Assembly: GCF_002260525.1 (NCBI RefSeq)
Contig: NZ_MRYI01000001.1
Coordinates: forward strand, 620,001 to 684,000
Source of the DNA: Hahella sp. CCB-MM4
GTDB lineage: Bacteria; Pseudomonadota; Gammaproteobacteria; Pseudomonadales; Oleiphilaceae
Direction of reading: 5' to 3'
Length of the DNA: 64,000 nt
In this document: positions 3,257 through 8,708 of the stretch, piece after piece
How the letters are laid out: each line of letters starts with the position of its first letter
Numbering within the stretch: position 1 is the first letter of the stretch
Notes under the pieces: model-generated
The model's database searches: none
What the model saw: only the letters and a program-made list of their open reading frames with translations
Told to the model about the DNA's origin: nothing
Position numbers and translations under genes: made by a program

Positions 3257-3794
3257 ACGATTCTCGTCTCATTTTACTCTCATTAAAGATCAGAGGCTCT
3301 TTCACAGGAGTAGTCAAGACAGGATCTCTTCCGCCACTGAGGCGGAAGAGTTAGTCTCAACCATTCATTAATCATTCTCCTGAAAGAATTTTGCCATTTA
3401 TGGCTAACGCTCAAATTTCAGGGACAATCTGCAACATCCGTTTTCAGCTCCCTTCCAGAAATTTCACATATCTGAGTTCTGCCGCTAAAAAAAATTATTT
3501 GGCATGACTTCTCGACCAATTTACGGCAATAATCTCTAAAGGCTTGAATTTAAAGCACTCTGCCTCCATCTAAGGCGATATAGTTACATTAAGATGCTTC
3601 CATATTAATTTTTTTTATCTTCAATTGAGGATGATTTCTGGAAAAATGTGGAAAGTCGGACAATTATTATCCTGAACATCATCTGAAAAAGCCGCTATCT
3701 CGTAACGGTAGATAGCGTTCAATCTAAGTGGCTTCTACGTGGTTTGTTACTGGATTGATCACTGGTATTGGTCAGAAAAGGTGAAACTGCTGCC
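3257..3794. other. AT-rich intergenic region, no gene seen
   Basis: About 540 bases without a convincing reading frame. It holds a hairpin at 3326-3350, then a markedly AT-rich stretch (about 3480-3670) unlike the surrounding coding DNA, and a second dyad CGCTATCT/AGATAGCG (3693-3700 and 3710-3717, 9-nt loop) 78 bases before the next start codon. The AT-rich part could be a promoter region or an old insertion boundary. Confidence 0.6.
3326..3350. terminator. Hairpin after the antiporter gene
   Basis: Perfect 10-bp stem CTCTTCCGCC / GGCGGAAGAG with a 5-nt loop, 70 bases after the antiporter stop codon. The T-run that follows is weak (TTAGTCTC), so termination is likely but not certain. Confidence 0.55.
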
Positions 3795-4391
3795 ATGGGA
3801 ATAACAGTATTTAAAGATAGCAACGACAGCTCACGCACCTATCTTCGTATCACCAGAGCCATTAACGGCCGCGAACAACAGCGTTATGTTCGGGTCGATG
3901 GGCCATCCAAGGCGGCGATGAAACGCGCCATGAAAGAGGCAAAGGAAATTGACCAGCGCCTACAGCAATGGCAAACAGCAGTGCGTGAACTCATCGCGCT
4001 TAGTGGCGATAATCTGATACACGAAGATGGCACAGTCGTTGGACTGCAACTGCAAACCCGTCATCGGGAAGGCCGCAAGCCGGCAACCGAATTCAAAATA
4101 CGGGTCAAGCTGCCGGACCGTAAGCCCCTGTTTAAATCAGTCTCTGTTGATAAACACGGGTTTGATGAAGCTTACGAACTTGCTATAACAAGGATTTGTG
4201 AGCTACGCGGACTGTCTGATCAGTCTGAGGCATTCGACAAACTGTTGCAGTGTGAAGATGCCTATCTGGATAAGTATGACGTTCCGACACATTTGTTGGA
4301 AGAAGTCAGCAAATCCGGGAAAGCCCGCAAGAAAACCAAAGACGAAAAAGGTTGGATTGGTCAGCTCACGGGCTTTCTGAGGAGTAGATAG
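3795..4391 (+). CDS. Unknown protein with AP2/arm-type DNA-binding-like segments
   Basis: I do not recognise this 198-residue protein. ATG 3795 is chosen over TTG 3768 because AAAGGTGA lies about 11 bases upstream. The N-terminal third (TYLRITR...QQRYVRV, then a charged helix) resembles the arm-type DNA-binding domain of tyrosine recombinases. A central stretch (TEFKIRVKLP... then GFDEAYELAITRICELRG) follows the strand-strand-strand-helix pattern of AP2 domains. The C-terminus is basic (KARKKTKDEKG). No catalytic recombinase residues are present, so it would be a stand-alone DNA-binding protein if the resemblance holds. It follows an AT-rich gap and its 3' end overlaps the convergent MscS gene by 26 bases. 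The gene is real by composition; the function is a weak inference. Confidence 0.6.
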   Translation: MGITVFKDSNDSSRTYLRITRAINGREQQRYVRVDGPSKAAMKRAMKEAKEIDQRLQQWQTAVRELIALSGDNLIHEDGTVVGLQLQTRHREGRKPATEFKIRVKLPDRKPLFKSVSVDKHGFDEAYELAITRICELRGLSDQSEAFDKLLQCEDAYLDKYDVPTHLLEEVSKSGKARKKTKDEKGWIGQLTGFLRSR

Positions 4392-5226
4392 GTAACGGCA
4401 ATGGCGACGGTGCAGGCTCCATATCGCGGCCGGGCCGCTTGATGTTTTGTGCCTGGAAGAGAGCTTCTGTGCGGATCACAATATCCGACTGAAATGCTTT
4501 TTCGAAATGCACATCAAATACGTATGCCTTTGCCCTCAACCTGATAGCAAGGCGGTCTGACAGTGGATGTTCGGACACCGTGAACGCCACCGGCTTTTTC
4601 AAGTAGATATAGCGGCTGGTAATCAGGACTTCATGCACCAGATCCTGAGCCAGCTTCAGATCCGCATCCAGAGCCAGATAGAAATCCGTCACCACCATCA
4701 TATCCATGGCTCCGGCATTCCCTGAAGACACCACTTCGGTAATAAACCGGGAGTTGGGAATGGTCACGGTATTGTCATCCAGGGTGGTAATTCTCACCGA
4801 ACGCAGACCGATACTAACGATTTCGCCGTAGACATCTCCGAAACTGACTCGATCCCCGACTTGAAATGGGCGGTCAAACAGCAGCATCAACCCGGCGATC
4901 AGGGAGGCAGCCACATCCTTCAGGGCAAAACCTACCGCCACAACCGCACTTCCTCCCAGGGCCAGCATCAATTCATGAGGAGGCTGTAGTATCCCCACAA
5001 TCAGGGCATACAACCCTCCCAGATACCAGATAAAGCTGAATAAGGTGACGGTCTGCAGTATGACAAAGCGATGACCGGGCAGTGACTCCATCAGTTTTTG
5101 CGCTAAATGGCGAACCAGACGGTTTACCACCCAAAGAAACAGTGCCCCCAGCAAAAACAAAGTGAGTTTGGCGGGGTCCAGCACGGTCCCCAGGATTTCA
5201 AGTTGATCTACCGCCTTGCTATCCAT
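4366..5226 (-). CDS. MscS-family mechanosensitive channel
   Basis: Small-conductance mechanosensitive channel homologue in the inner membrane, 286 residues, equal in length to E. coli MscS. There are three N-terminal helices (about 19-38, 57-80, 88-118). The pore-lining helix has the Gly/Ala-rich pattern GGSAVVAVGFALKD starting at residue 91, followed by DRPFQVGDRV and the beta domain with TIPNSR at 155-160, all typical of the family. It starts 12 bases after the stop of the ATPase gene 5239-7980 and is almost certainly co-transcribed with it, which suggests the channel is gated or controlled by that ATPase. Its 3' end overlaps the convergent gene by 26 bases. Confidence 0.93.
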   Translation of the reverse strand: MDSKAVDQLEILGTVLDPAKLTLFLLGALFLWVVNRLVRHLAQKLMESLPGHRFVILQTVTLFSFIWYLGGLYALIVGILQPPHELMLALGGSAVVAVGFALKDVAASLIAGLMLLFDRPFQVGDRVSFGDVYGEIVSIGLRSVRITTLDDNTVTIPNSRFITEVVSSGNAGAMDMMVVTDFYLALDADLKLAQDLVHEVLITSRYIYLKKPVAFTVSEHPLSDRLAIRLRAKAYVFDVHFEKAFQSDIVIRTEALFQAQNIKRPGRDMEPAPSPLPLPIYSSESP

Positions 5227-5238
5227 TGTTGCTTTCCT

Positions 5239-7980
5239 CTAGCTGTAAACCATGTTTTTTCGGCTCAGATGGGTAATGACAGAGCCATACCATAGCGGTG
5301 TTATGCGCCAACGACCGCCGGCATCCGTCCTGACCACCCCCTGATCAAGACAGGCTGTCATGGTTTGTTCCACTGACAATAACGACAGCGTCGTCACCAA
5401 TGCCAGCTCTTCATGGTTAAGCGCCTTATGAGTTACCAGTGCCAGTAAGATAAAGCAGGCATCCAGAGACAGCGAAGACAAAAATGTTGCCGCAGGACGC
5501 TGGGGAAGAGCAATCACCACATCCCGCCCTTCGTAACTGGCGGCTCCCAACCAAAGATGCAGGGCCATTTCCGGGTTACCACCACTAAGCTCCCACAACA
5601 GATTAAATACCCGGGTATCAGCCGCCCGGAATGAAGATGCTTCCGTTCCGGCCATTGCCGATAGAAGCAAATCATCATATTGCAGCTTCCTGCGGGAAGC
5701 ATGATGACGGGATAAAATCAGCTTGCGCATCTCACTCGCGGTCCAACGCGGCATACTGACAGCATGAGTGAACGGATGCTCATGCCGGAATACCCGGCAA
5801 AGGTAATGCCAGCTCGGGCCATGCATGATCACCAAATAGAAAACATGGGGATTGCGTCTGTGCAACGTCTTGAACAGTTCACGCACACCGTCAAAATATC
5901 CGGTCTGGGCAAGTAAGAGATTTTCCGTCTGGTCGATCACCACCAGGCGCTTTTCCTGCTGGCCGTTCGATTCATCCGGTAAGCCTTTCTCATGCTCCTC
6001 AAGCATCAAACGGACATCTTCCGAGGTACAGGTCTTCGCCCTGACATCCATCCATTGAACCAGCCACTGGGAATGGTGACGGACCAGTTGCCGTATGAGA
6101 TGGGTCTTACCCGCGCCATGCTCTCCATGTAGTAACAGCACATTATCTTGTTGATGCCCTTCAAACCATCGGCTTACGGGCTCAGTGATCAGCGTCAGTG
6201 TCTGCTCCAGAGTGATCAGAGGCTGTTCCTGCTCGTCACGCTCCAGCAACCAATATCGGTAGGACTTCTCCAGAAATGGGTTAAGCTCCGCGTCTTTCTC
6301 TTCTTCATCGCTACCTATGGCGGTCTCCAGGCGCAATCGAAGCAGTCGCAGGGACAATGTCCGGTAATTTTCAAACTGAGATAATTTGCCGTGAAGACTC
6401 AGTACAAGATCCCGCAACTGGGCCAGGACAAACAGAGCGGGCCAAAACAGCAGCAGCCAGGGTTTCCTCAAACCGGCCTCCGCGACAGCAGCTTTAGCTG
6501 GTGCCAGCTGGTGAGCGATAAATTTTTCCGTGATTGGCGAGTACTGTCTCAGAGTGACAATCAAGAGCCCCCACATCAATACACTCAGCGTCACTTGCAG
6601 CAGGCTGTGCAGCATCCCTCCGCCGGCGACGGCTGTCAGTTGCAGAAGTGCCCATCCCACAACCGCCGCCACAGAAAACCGGCCGGCCCGATCGTGCATC
6701 CTGGAAGCCCCTGACTGGGAAACAAACTGGTCCACCCTGGAGTGCATACGGGCCAGTAACCACTCACTGAGCACCCGTACAGCCCGGAACAGGGCATAAA
6801 CCACCCCCAGGGGGGCAAGCAGACGGAAAATATGCCAGTGGGAGGGGGCCAGCATGCTCACATATACCGCCAGTCCCCAGATAACCAGCCAGGCGGCATT
6901 GGGTTTGATAACCCATACCAGAGAGTTAAGAATCCGCATACTGGGACCATGCCCCAGCCTGCTCAACATCCGACGCTGAAGGTGAGCCACTCCTTTGGTG
7001 GAGAGCGTGGCCAGTCTCAACATGAAGACAATGGCCACAATCAGCATAATCAGCTGCATTGACCAAGCTGAATACAACGCCACAAGATGACCCTGGGTAC
7101 TGGCGGTTTCGTGCTCAAACTGCATATTTTCAAAAAAGCGCATGAGCAGAACCGGCATCAGCCAGTGTAATTCCCGGGAGATATCTTCCAAGGCCAGATC
7201 CGGCTGCTCCAGCATGGTATCCAAGCCATCGTTGTTGAGAGCCAGATTGTGGTAATACACCGCGATGGTTTTTAACACCTGCACCGCAGATTCAATGTCG
7301 TCAGCCATATTCTTTAGCTGAGCATCAGCGTCTATCGGCACCGGTGCAACACTGTCAGGCAAGGTCATGATTTCACGCCAGAGAGAATCGGCTGCAGCAA
7401 CAGTGACAGGTCCCGAGCTGAGACGCTGAGCTAACTGACCACTAAGCTGCTGCCACTGCTGGGTAAGGTGGCGAAGGGAGGTAATATCGGGCACAGCGGC
7501 GTCAGAGGACTGTAGTTGCATCACCCAGCCACTGCTGCCGGACCAGTGGTGAAAAAGGCTTTCAAGAGCCGCCAGTTGGCTCGACGGCAATCTCAGCCAG
7601 TGCTCCCTGATGGAAACGACATCCCGCCTCAACGGAACCAGTTGTCCCTGAACCTCAGTGATATCGTCAGCCAGCTTTTCACATTCGACGGCTTCAAAGG
7701 GCACATTAACCCCCTGTGCGGACAGGGCAGCCATATAGGCTCTGCGAGAGGTCATGTCATCCAAAGCGAATGGAAACAAGTGGGCACGTTGAAATGTCAG
7801 CGGTATTTTACCCTGACGGATAGCCACAAAGCTCTGCTGTGCGGTGATAAGTTGTTGCTGCTCTGCTTTAAGGCTTTGCAGTTGAAGGTTTGCATCCTTG
7901 CAGTCAGCACGTCCGGCCCCGGCAACAAGAAAACACGTCACCATAACCAGGATCTGAAGGACCAACATGCGGTATCGCAT
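5239..7980 (-). CDS. Exported-start, multi-membrane-helix protein with C-terminal AAA-like ATPase domain
   Basis: A 913-residue protein that I cannot assign to a named family. ATG 7980 is chosen because it begins a clear signal peptide (hydrophobic core, then AGAGRA-D near 26); ATG 7992 is the alternative, and longer starts would overlap the GST gene. Order: signal peptide; a periplasmic alpha-helical region of about 270 residues with coiled-coil character; about six to seven membrane helices (roughly 305-550); then a cytoplasmic ATPase with Walker A GEHGAGKT (619-626) and Walker B LVVID (679-683); then a winged-helix-like tail. The layout of a big helical periplasmic sensor plus many membrane segments recalls MscK/MscM, but the channel is a separate gene 12 bases downstream. 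I infer an ATP-dependent regulator of that channel. Confidence 0.8.
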   Translation of the reverse strand: MRYRMLVLQILVMVTCFLVAGAGRADCKDANLQLQSLKAEQQQLITAQQSFVAIRQGKIPLTFQRAHLFPFALDDMTSRRAYMAALSAQGVNVPFEAVECEKLADDITEVQGQLVPLRRDVVSIREHWLRLPSSQLAALESLFHHWSGSSGWVMQLQSSDAAVPDITSLRHLTQQWQQLSGQLAQRLSSGPVTVAAADSLWREIMTLPDSVAPVPIDADAQLKNMADDIESAVQVLKTIAVYYHNLALNNDGLDTMLEQPDLALEDISRELHWLMPVLLMRFFENMQFEHETASTQGHLVALYSAWSMQLIMLIVAIVFMLRLATLSTKGVAHLQRRMLSRLGHGPSMRILNSLVWVIKPNAAWLVIWGLAVYVSMLAPSHWHIFRLLAPLGVVYALFRAVRVLSEWLLARMHSRVDQFVSQSGASRMHDRAGRFSVAAVVGWALLQLTAVAGGGMLHSLLQVTLSVLMWGLLIVTLRQYSPITEKFIAHQLAPAKAAVAEAGLRKPWLLLFWPALFVLAQLRDLVLSLHGKLSQFENYRTLSLRLLRLRLETAIGSDEEEKDAELNPFLEKSYRYWLLERDEQEQPLITLEQTLTLITEPVSRWFEGHQQDNVLLLHGEHGAGKTHLIRQLVRHHSQWLVQWMDVRAKTCTSEDVRLMLEEHEKGLPDESNGQQEKRLVVIDQTENLLLAQTGYFDGVRELFKTLHRRNPHVFYLVIMHGPSWHYLCRVFRHEHPFTHAVSMPRWTASEMRKLILSRHHASRRKLQYDDLLLSAMAGTEASSFRAADTRVFNLLWELSGGNPEMALHLWLGAASYEGRDVVIALPQRPAATFLSSLSLDACFILLALVTHKALNHEELALVTTLSLLSVEQTMTACLDQGVVRTDAGGRWRITPLWYGSVITHLSRKNMVYS

Positions 7981-8063: not shown

Positions 8064-8708
8064 CTACAAGCCGATCTCTTCCCGTTCGATGACTTCCGAC
8101 TCTTCTGTCGCCATGCGCAGCCACTCCTGCATGTTCGCATCCTCCAACTGCCATTCCACATAACGCTGAGACAACTCGGACAGTTGTATGTTGTAGGAGT
8201 CAAATCGGAAGACCACTGGCGCAAACATGGCATCGGCGATAGACCACTCACCAAACAGACCGCCCATCCGGGGTTGTCTTTGTAGACATTCATTCCAAAG
8301 ACGGTCGATACGGGAAATATCATTGGCAAGTTCATTACTGAGAGCCACTTTTCGGTCTTGGGCCCGGCAGTTCATCGGCAAGGCCTGGCGTAAAGCCATA
8401 AACCCGCTGTGCATCTCGGCGCTGACGGCTCTGGCCAAAGCTCTGTCTAAGGCATTTTCCGGCCACAGGCCTGGTACTTTCTCTGCCACATATTCAGCAA
8501 TGGCCAGGGAGTCCCAGACGGTCAGCTCCCCATCAATAAGAACCGGAACCCGACCGGCATCAGAGAATCGATATATTTGGTCACGATAACCGGGGGTATC
8601 CAGGGCGATACATTTTTCTTCGAAATCCATACCGCTATGACGCAGCACCAACCATGCCCGAAGCGACCAGGAAGAATAATTCCTATTACCAATTACCAGT
8701 GTCATCAT
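8064..8708 (-). CDS. Glutathione S-transferase family protein
   Basis: Cytosolic GST-fold enzyme of 214 residues. The N-terminal thioredoxin-like half starts with NRNYSSWSLRAW, has the cis-proline segment GRVPVL and the glutathione-contacting WDSLAIAEYVAE. The all-helical C-terminal half has GLFGEWSIADAMFAPVV, the N-capping-box motif of the family. The serine pair in NYSSWS suggests a zeta/YfcF-like rather than tyrosine-type active site. The substrate is unknown. ATG 8708 has AGGA about 10 bases upstream; the adjacent ATG 8705 is an alternative. It lies about 80 bases upstream of the ATPase gene and may be the first gene of that unit. Confidence 0.9.
   Translation of the reverse strand: MMTLVIGNRNYSSWSLRAWLVLRHSGMDFEEKCIALDTPGYRDQIYRFSDAGRVPVLIDGELTVWDSLAIAEYVAEKVPGLWPENALDRALARAVSAEMHSGFMALRQALPMNCRAQDRKVALSNELANDISRIDRLWNECLQRQPRMGGLFGEWSIADAMFAPVVFRFDSYNIQLSELSQRYVEWQLEDANMQEWLRMATEESEVIEREEIGL

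Follow-up and report, generated by a model that had tools for sequence, protein, structure and literature searches.

What is an ATPase-like membrane protein doing beside a mechanosensitive channel? In the window, the 64,000-nucleotide stretch of Hahella sp. CCB-MM4 DNA analysed here, a gene for a 913-residue protein, which we call the partner, lies directly upstream of an MscS-type channel gene. A preliminary description of this DNA had coupled the two on the strength of their adjacency and proposed an ATP-gated or ATP-regulated channel, to be compared with MscK and possibly serving in defence or stress. The two-gene module is real and, as far as the literature was searched, undescribed. That search, judged on titles and abstract openings and with subscription papers mostly outside it, found no description of a partner-MscS pair, and a term search of PMC4005912 gave 0 occurrences.

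Architecture of the locus and the partner protein

The window comes from a 6.66 Mb genome in 161 contigs, congeneric with genome G006. The two genes contain the following features:

5239 to 7980, minus strand: partner gene, 913 aa, with signal peptide, periplasmic helical part, membrane block, AAA+/STAND-like module and C-terminal winged helix
7903 to 7980, minus strand: signal-peptide-like segment, residues 1-26 (hydropathy peak at residues 5-23)
7081 to 7902, minus strand: periplasmic, mostly helical region, residues 27-300 (helices predicted in a low-confidence model)
6400 to 7068, minus strand: membrane block, residues 305-527, six hydrophobic segments (hydropathy)
6103 to 6126, minus strand: Walker A motif GEHGAGKT, residues 619-626 (sequence)
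5932 to 5946, minus strand: Walker B motif LVVID, residues 679-683 (sequence)
5572 to 5580, minus strand: GNP motif, residues 801-803 (G and P invariant in 20 aligned partners)
5260 to 5466, minus strand: C-terminal winged-helix region, residues 839-907 (helix/strand pattern, block pLDDT 63-83)
5227 to 5238, minus strand: spacer of 12 bases from the partner stop codon to the MscS ATG
4366 to 5226, minus strand: MscS-type channel gene, full-length, 286 aa
4729 to 4917, minus strand: MscS beta-domain PF00924, residues 104-166 (Pfam)
4513 to 4530, minus strand: clade signature KAYVFD, residues 233-238, C-terminal cage region (pattern [KR][AV]Y[VP]x[DE])

The gene pair, its 12-base interval, both Walker motifs and the signal peptide are thus as first described. 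A longer partner open reading frame (ORF), starting at 8154 and encoding 971 aa, is also available; we prefer the start at 7980 because its signal-peptide-like N-terminus fits and the longer frame overlaps the upstream GST gene. The G+C content of the partner (53.8%) and MscS (52.4%) genes is close to that of the window (51.8%). An independent promoter for the channel gene had been named as a point that would speak against coupling; a consensus scan of the minus strand found no sigma-70-like site in the intergenic interval or within the partner gene, its overall yield (3 sites, 3.4 expected) being at chance level. A convergent ORF on the opposite strand (3768-4391, plus; 207 aa, no Pfam match) shares 26 bases with the 3' end of the MscS gene, and a same-sized ORF in G006 (L035 3526-4149) overlaps the MscS 3' end likewise.

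Beyond the signal segment, hydropathy identifies six hydrophobic stretches at about residues 305-527. Since the N-terminal domain would be periplasmic and the ATPase cytoplasmic, the number of full crossings should be odd, and five crossings with a sixth segment that is broken or re-entrant are likelier than the six or seven membrane helices proposed earlier. P514, in the proposed broken or re-entrant segment, is invariant across partner alignments.

The assignment of the C-terminal part as an ATPase is backed by its Walker motifs and its similarity to AAA+ proteins and falls short in Pfam, where the window protein reaches no cut-off (best match AAA_16, 29.4 bits, cut-off 32.6). Profile comparison matches the partner to AAA+ chains of the PDB. 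A foldseek search with the core model placed ORC chains at the top, a second comparison returned RFC and ORC, and plant resistosome and SAMD9 chains are also in the list. These fold matches have TM scores of 0.3-0.4, the VIA rows that span the full core have an rmsd near 11-12 A, and we treat them as hints because the AlphaFold models, built from two alignment rows, are of low confidence (mean pLDDT 43.9 for the whole protein and 52.6 for the core). At that confidence, the order of elements, an AAA core and then a winged helix, fits the ORC/STAND arrangement. The winged-helix region has a profile match to PDB 2d1h, with HTH matches below cut-off in one relative, and we take the position of the GNP motif to be like that of the STAND GxP motif. 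Scans of the window partner and six others with Pfam, NCBIfam and PADLOC found no model that describes the protein, the matches being mainly to P-loop or HTH stretches; two of the six relatives pass a general AAA cut-off (AAA, 22.5 against 21.2 bits; AAA_22, 28.3 against 27), and the soluble, P-loop-less partner at L052 matches nothing in the three collections. The partner resembles ORC/Cdc6-like and STAND AAA+ ATPases in its Walker motifs, predicted lid and winged helix, and in its profile and weak fold matches. Unlike them, it comes with a membrane anchor and a channel, has a broken P-loop in most relatives examined and, in the window protein, stays below Pfam cut-offs.

MscK and MscM also associate a periplasmic helical part and extra membrane helices with an MscS pore, in their case within one chain, whereas the module uses separate genes. 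To our knowledge MscK has no AAA+ module. The idea of a split MscK was rejected: the partner has no PF12794 or PF12795 (MscS_porin / MscS_TM) match at E<=1, and hhalign against five MscK proteins gives a probability of 2.4%.

Linkage of the partner to one MscS clade

The window MscS scores 73.2 bits against PF00924, above the cut-off of 20.2. TM1-TM3, the beta domain and the alpha/beta cage are complete: as in MscS proteins of solved structure, for positions 8-268 of a 276-position profile of linked channels align with MscS chains at full length, and the window sequence by itself matches 3udc over residues 16-269. Unlike those channels, the linked MscS proteins form their own clade, carry the cage motif [KR][AV]Y[VP]x[DE], lack the PxPQ-type motif and are accompanied by a partner gene wherever the locus examined was intact. 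The cage motif is present in 67 of 71 linked and 1 of 64 unlinked MscS ORFs, the single exception being a remnant in genome G938 described below. The PxPQ-type motif occurs in 0/71 linked and 22/64 unlinked ORFs (looser P.PQ, 1 and 26), a difference that is only suggestive, as the motif is also missing from 42 of the 64 unlinked ORFs.

For the MscS tree, near-copies and short rows were removed (71 linked rows to 43, 64 unlinked to 62), leaving 105 rows; a 99-row version omits six further unlinked rows (five flagged as long, and L200). On the unrooted 99-row tree, a branch with support 100/100 splits the linked clade (44 rows, the G938 remnant included) from 55 others, and with all 105 rows the same branch, again an unrooted split, has an SH-aLRT of 99. 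The window's genome has five PF00924 places, of which the linked clade holds only the window MscS. Among viral contigs, the MscS profile found one weak relative (L116), which is unlinked.

Linkage was counted in three overlapping samples, with generic P-loop-only matches set aside. Among 146 relatives, the window's genome included, 24 genomes have a partner match; in 19/19 partner loci (from 18 genomes) the partner is followed immediately by a same-strand MscS ORF, and five other matching relatives (G043, G071, G072, G080 and G086), whose loci have shorter flanks, are linked as well. In a sample of the class, 183 of 369 genomes match the partner at E<=0.001 (two candidates scored per genome). 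The best 30 of these loci comprise the window's own and 13 others with MscS and 16 without, the latter with matches confined to the P-loop half. Whole-ORF scores separate the two groups, with MscS present in 13/13 loci at 58.0 bits or above and 0/16 at 39.0 bits or below; genome-search scores overlap, L069 (39.6 bits, without MscS) exceeding L070, the weakest linked locus (38.2 bits). The phylum sample (398 genomes, five candidates scored per genome) yielded 23 matches at E<=1e-9, with MscS beside 18/18 partners and 0/5 P-loop-only matches; the 18 include the window's own, G132 and G507, already counted in earlier samples. All 18, like every other positive case, fall within the window's class. 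These counts measure linkage and not prevalence, for which the phylum search gives a lower bound: soluble types escape profile A3, which had no match there in G125 (linked at L070) or in g12 genomes.

The reverse search, in a class sample of 185 genomes, gave seven MscS genes at E<=1e-40, and all seven have a partner upstream; they include the window gene and five that the forward class search had already found. As its profile was built from linked members, the result applies to this clade and not to all MscS proteins. Of the MscS ORFs called unlinked, 36/66 have at least 900 nt of upstream sequence with no full partner there, one being the G938 remnant. The gap between the paired genes is at most 30 nt in 56 of 71 pairs, 12 of which overlap, with starts chosen by rule. 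The partner-MscS link is not due to chance: whichever gene the search starts from, the samples examined show near-perfect linkage. The coupling first proposed from adjacency is upheld, and the contrary expectation, that the partner is usually found without an MscS neighbour, is not borne out in these samples.

In two genera the two genes are also present or absent together. In genus g343, both occur in the same 38 of 61 genomes, always adjacent, and neither in the other 23. Among the 61 genomes sampled from genus g12, 37 have both, 22 neither, and one each the partner or the MscS gene only. The lone partner (G971) lies 130 bases from a contig end. The lone MscS match (G938, L142 2674-3609, minus) is a 311-aa frame that begins as a partner and ends as an MscS; it looks like the remnant of one deletion that fused the start of the one gene to the end of the other. 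Fisher p-values for joint presence are 2.7e-17 and 2.3e-14 and overstate independence, since the genomes in the tables are related. These counts leave out MscS matches near 1e-26 (G895, G916, G937, G972 and the second of G090), which the tree places outside the clade, and the second pieces of split partners. We guess the two genera to be Vibrio and Marinobacter. In the window's own genus, all seven genomes carry the partner.

Among the loci examined, the module sits at mostly shared chromosomal sites. Eight of 10 g343 loci have a common upstream gene family and eight a common downstream one, and 10 of 11 g12 loci have a common upstream family. L214 holds both genes though the pair is unmarked in this survey, another ORF having been picked over it. 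The genes upstream of the pair vary (GST, RlmJ, SPFH).

Variation in partner form and P-loop

Three types of partner occur. One is membrane-anchored; the other two are soluble and differ in whether they have a P-loop-like motif. Soluble partners without the motif are still homologous to the others (hhalign probability 99.5%, E 2e-22). The Walker A lysine is kept in 23 of 71 partner rows (two of the 23 being one locus) and absent from 48; on the tree it is kept in 17 of 43 rows and gone from 26, with at least four changes, which are probably losses. In the soluble P-loop-less clade, a proline also replaces the Walker B acid. Partner length class (600 aa) switches at least twice.

Because most rows miss this lysine, ATP use is not a constant feature of the partners and nucleotide control cannot be general. 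The ATP-gated channel of the preliminary description thus survives as a possibility for the Hahella member, whose P-loop is intact; judged by sequence, ATP-gating is not what holds the family together.

Several loci illustrate this range. The partner at L061 (1498-3870, minus; 799 aa) has a long N-terminal extension, an intact P-loop, an MbeD-like match below cut-off and no membrane segment by hydropathy. The 17 g343 loci (L089-L096, L117-L125) have GERGxG[TSAV]T as their P-loop sequence, keeping the Walker B acid but not the lysine; these partners are candidate ATP-binding pseudo-ATPases. The module occurs twice in genome G023 (L045 and L048), the copies being of different types. In G934:C35 and G967:C1, the partner match falls in two pieces in separate open frames beside a whole MscS match, reflecting either sequencing error or early decay.

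Roles for the partner at the channel

Our preferred reading, which we consider somewhat favoured, is that of a two-gene channel module in which an MscS pore is served by a dedicated subunit that docks on its cage and sets when it opens or recovers. The MscS protein would form the pore. We infer physical contact between the two proteins, with the AAA+/STAND-like and winged-helix part of the partner docking on the cytoplasmic cage; control would run from partner to channel, the docked partner governing the timing of channel opening or recovery. A Hahella-type partner would be tethered in the membrane beside the channel, its periplasmic part may read envelope stress, and the ATP/ADP state of its intact P-loop may act as a switch. 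In other lineages, where the partner is soluble, lacks a working P-loop, or both, it may be a scaffold or a sensor of something else. KtrAB/Trk K+ channels, in which a separate nucleotide-binding cytoplasmic subunit gates the pore, offer a model of how the module might work; the folds are unrelated, the module has an MscS pore, and its partner is often without a working P-loop.

Two lines of reasoning support this reading. The pairing persists across very different partner forms, suggesting that the shared C-terminal core is what acts with the channel. The cage is the likely site, given the linked channels' own cage motif and what is reported for Escherichia coli MscS. According to PMC4440785, the isolated cage domain binds polymerised FtsZ, indicating that a cage can bind cytoplasmic proteins, and removal of the C-terminal barrel leaves MscS able to protect cells from downshock; a role for the cytoplasmic domain in sensing crowding has been suggested (PMC9322971).

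The same FtsZ binding would suit a partner that assembles or anchors the channel, building it or holding it at a pole, septum or envelope site with no part in gating. This alternative, which we regard as unlikely though the most serious, would explain why linkage stays when the P-loop is often not intact, and the AAA+-like fold hints, from a low-confidence model, agree with it. The periplasmic part of anchored members suggests sensing instead, and the channel clade's cage motif fits either view. It is improbable that the two merely share an operon, being transcribed together for osmotic or envelope stress with no contact or direct control. Adjacency and short gaps are typical of plain operons too, but the pair is never apart in the loci examined, save at the contig end and in the deletion remnant; it stays together while its neighbours change, and the linked channels form one clade. 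A defence module, in which phage or envelope attack would trigger a STAND-like switch to open the MscS pore and depolarise the cell, is very improbable. In its favour are weak similarity of the window partner to nSTAND and Avs models around the P-loop, the resistosome and SAMD9 chains of the low-confidence foldseek list and patchy presence in two genera (38/61 genomes in each), as defence genes can show. These points are outweighed by PADLOC matches that, for the window protein and six other partners, cover short P-loop stretches and are never domain-wide, by a tblastn search of plasmid and phage collections with the window partner (a query that leaves out soluble types) that gave no match at E<=1e-5, by neighbours common to most loci examined in the two genera (10 and 11), by presence throughout the window's own genus and by P-loops that are often not intact.

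Returning to the partner as a gating subunit, we hold tentatively the fuller claim that this would be the first two-subunit MscS-type channel, in which an AAA+/STAND-type subunit gates the pore and senses the envelope as well as, for Hahella-type members, nucleotide state; in sister lineages it would have become a pseudo-ATPase yet stayed obligatory. Our data suggest that membrane tension is not the only control on this channel and that a dedicated second protein controls it too. An MscS clade that was not found without a specific ATPase-like partner provides a testable case of such control, and the natural series from intact to dead P-loops could separate scaffolding from energy use. The module also bears on why bacteria keep several MscS-type channels: if our reading is true, a valve classed as mechanosensitive would really be a regulated one.
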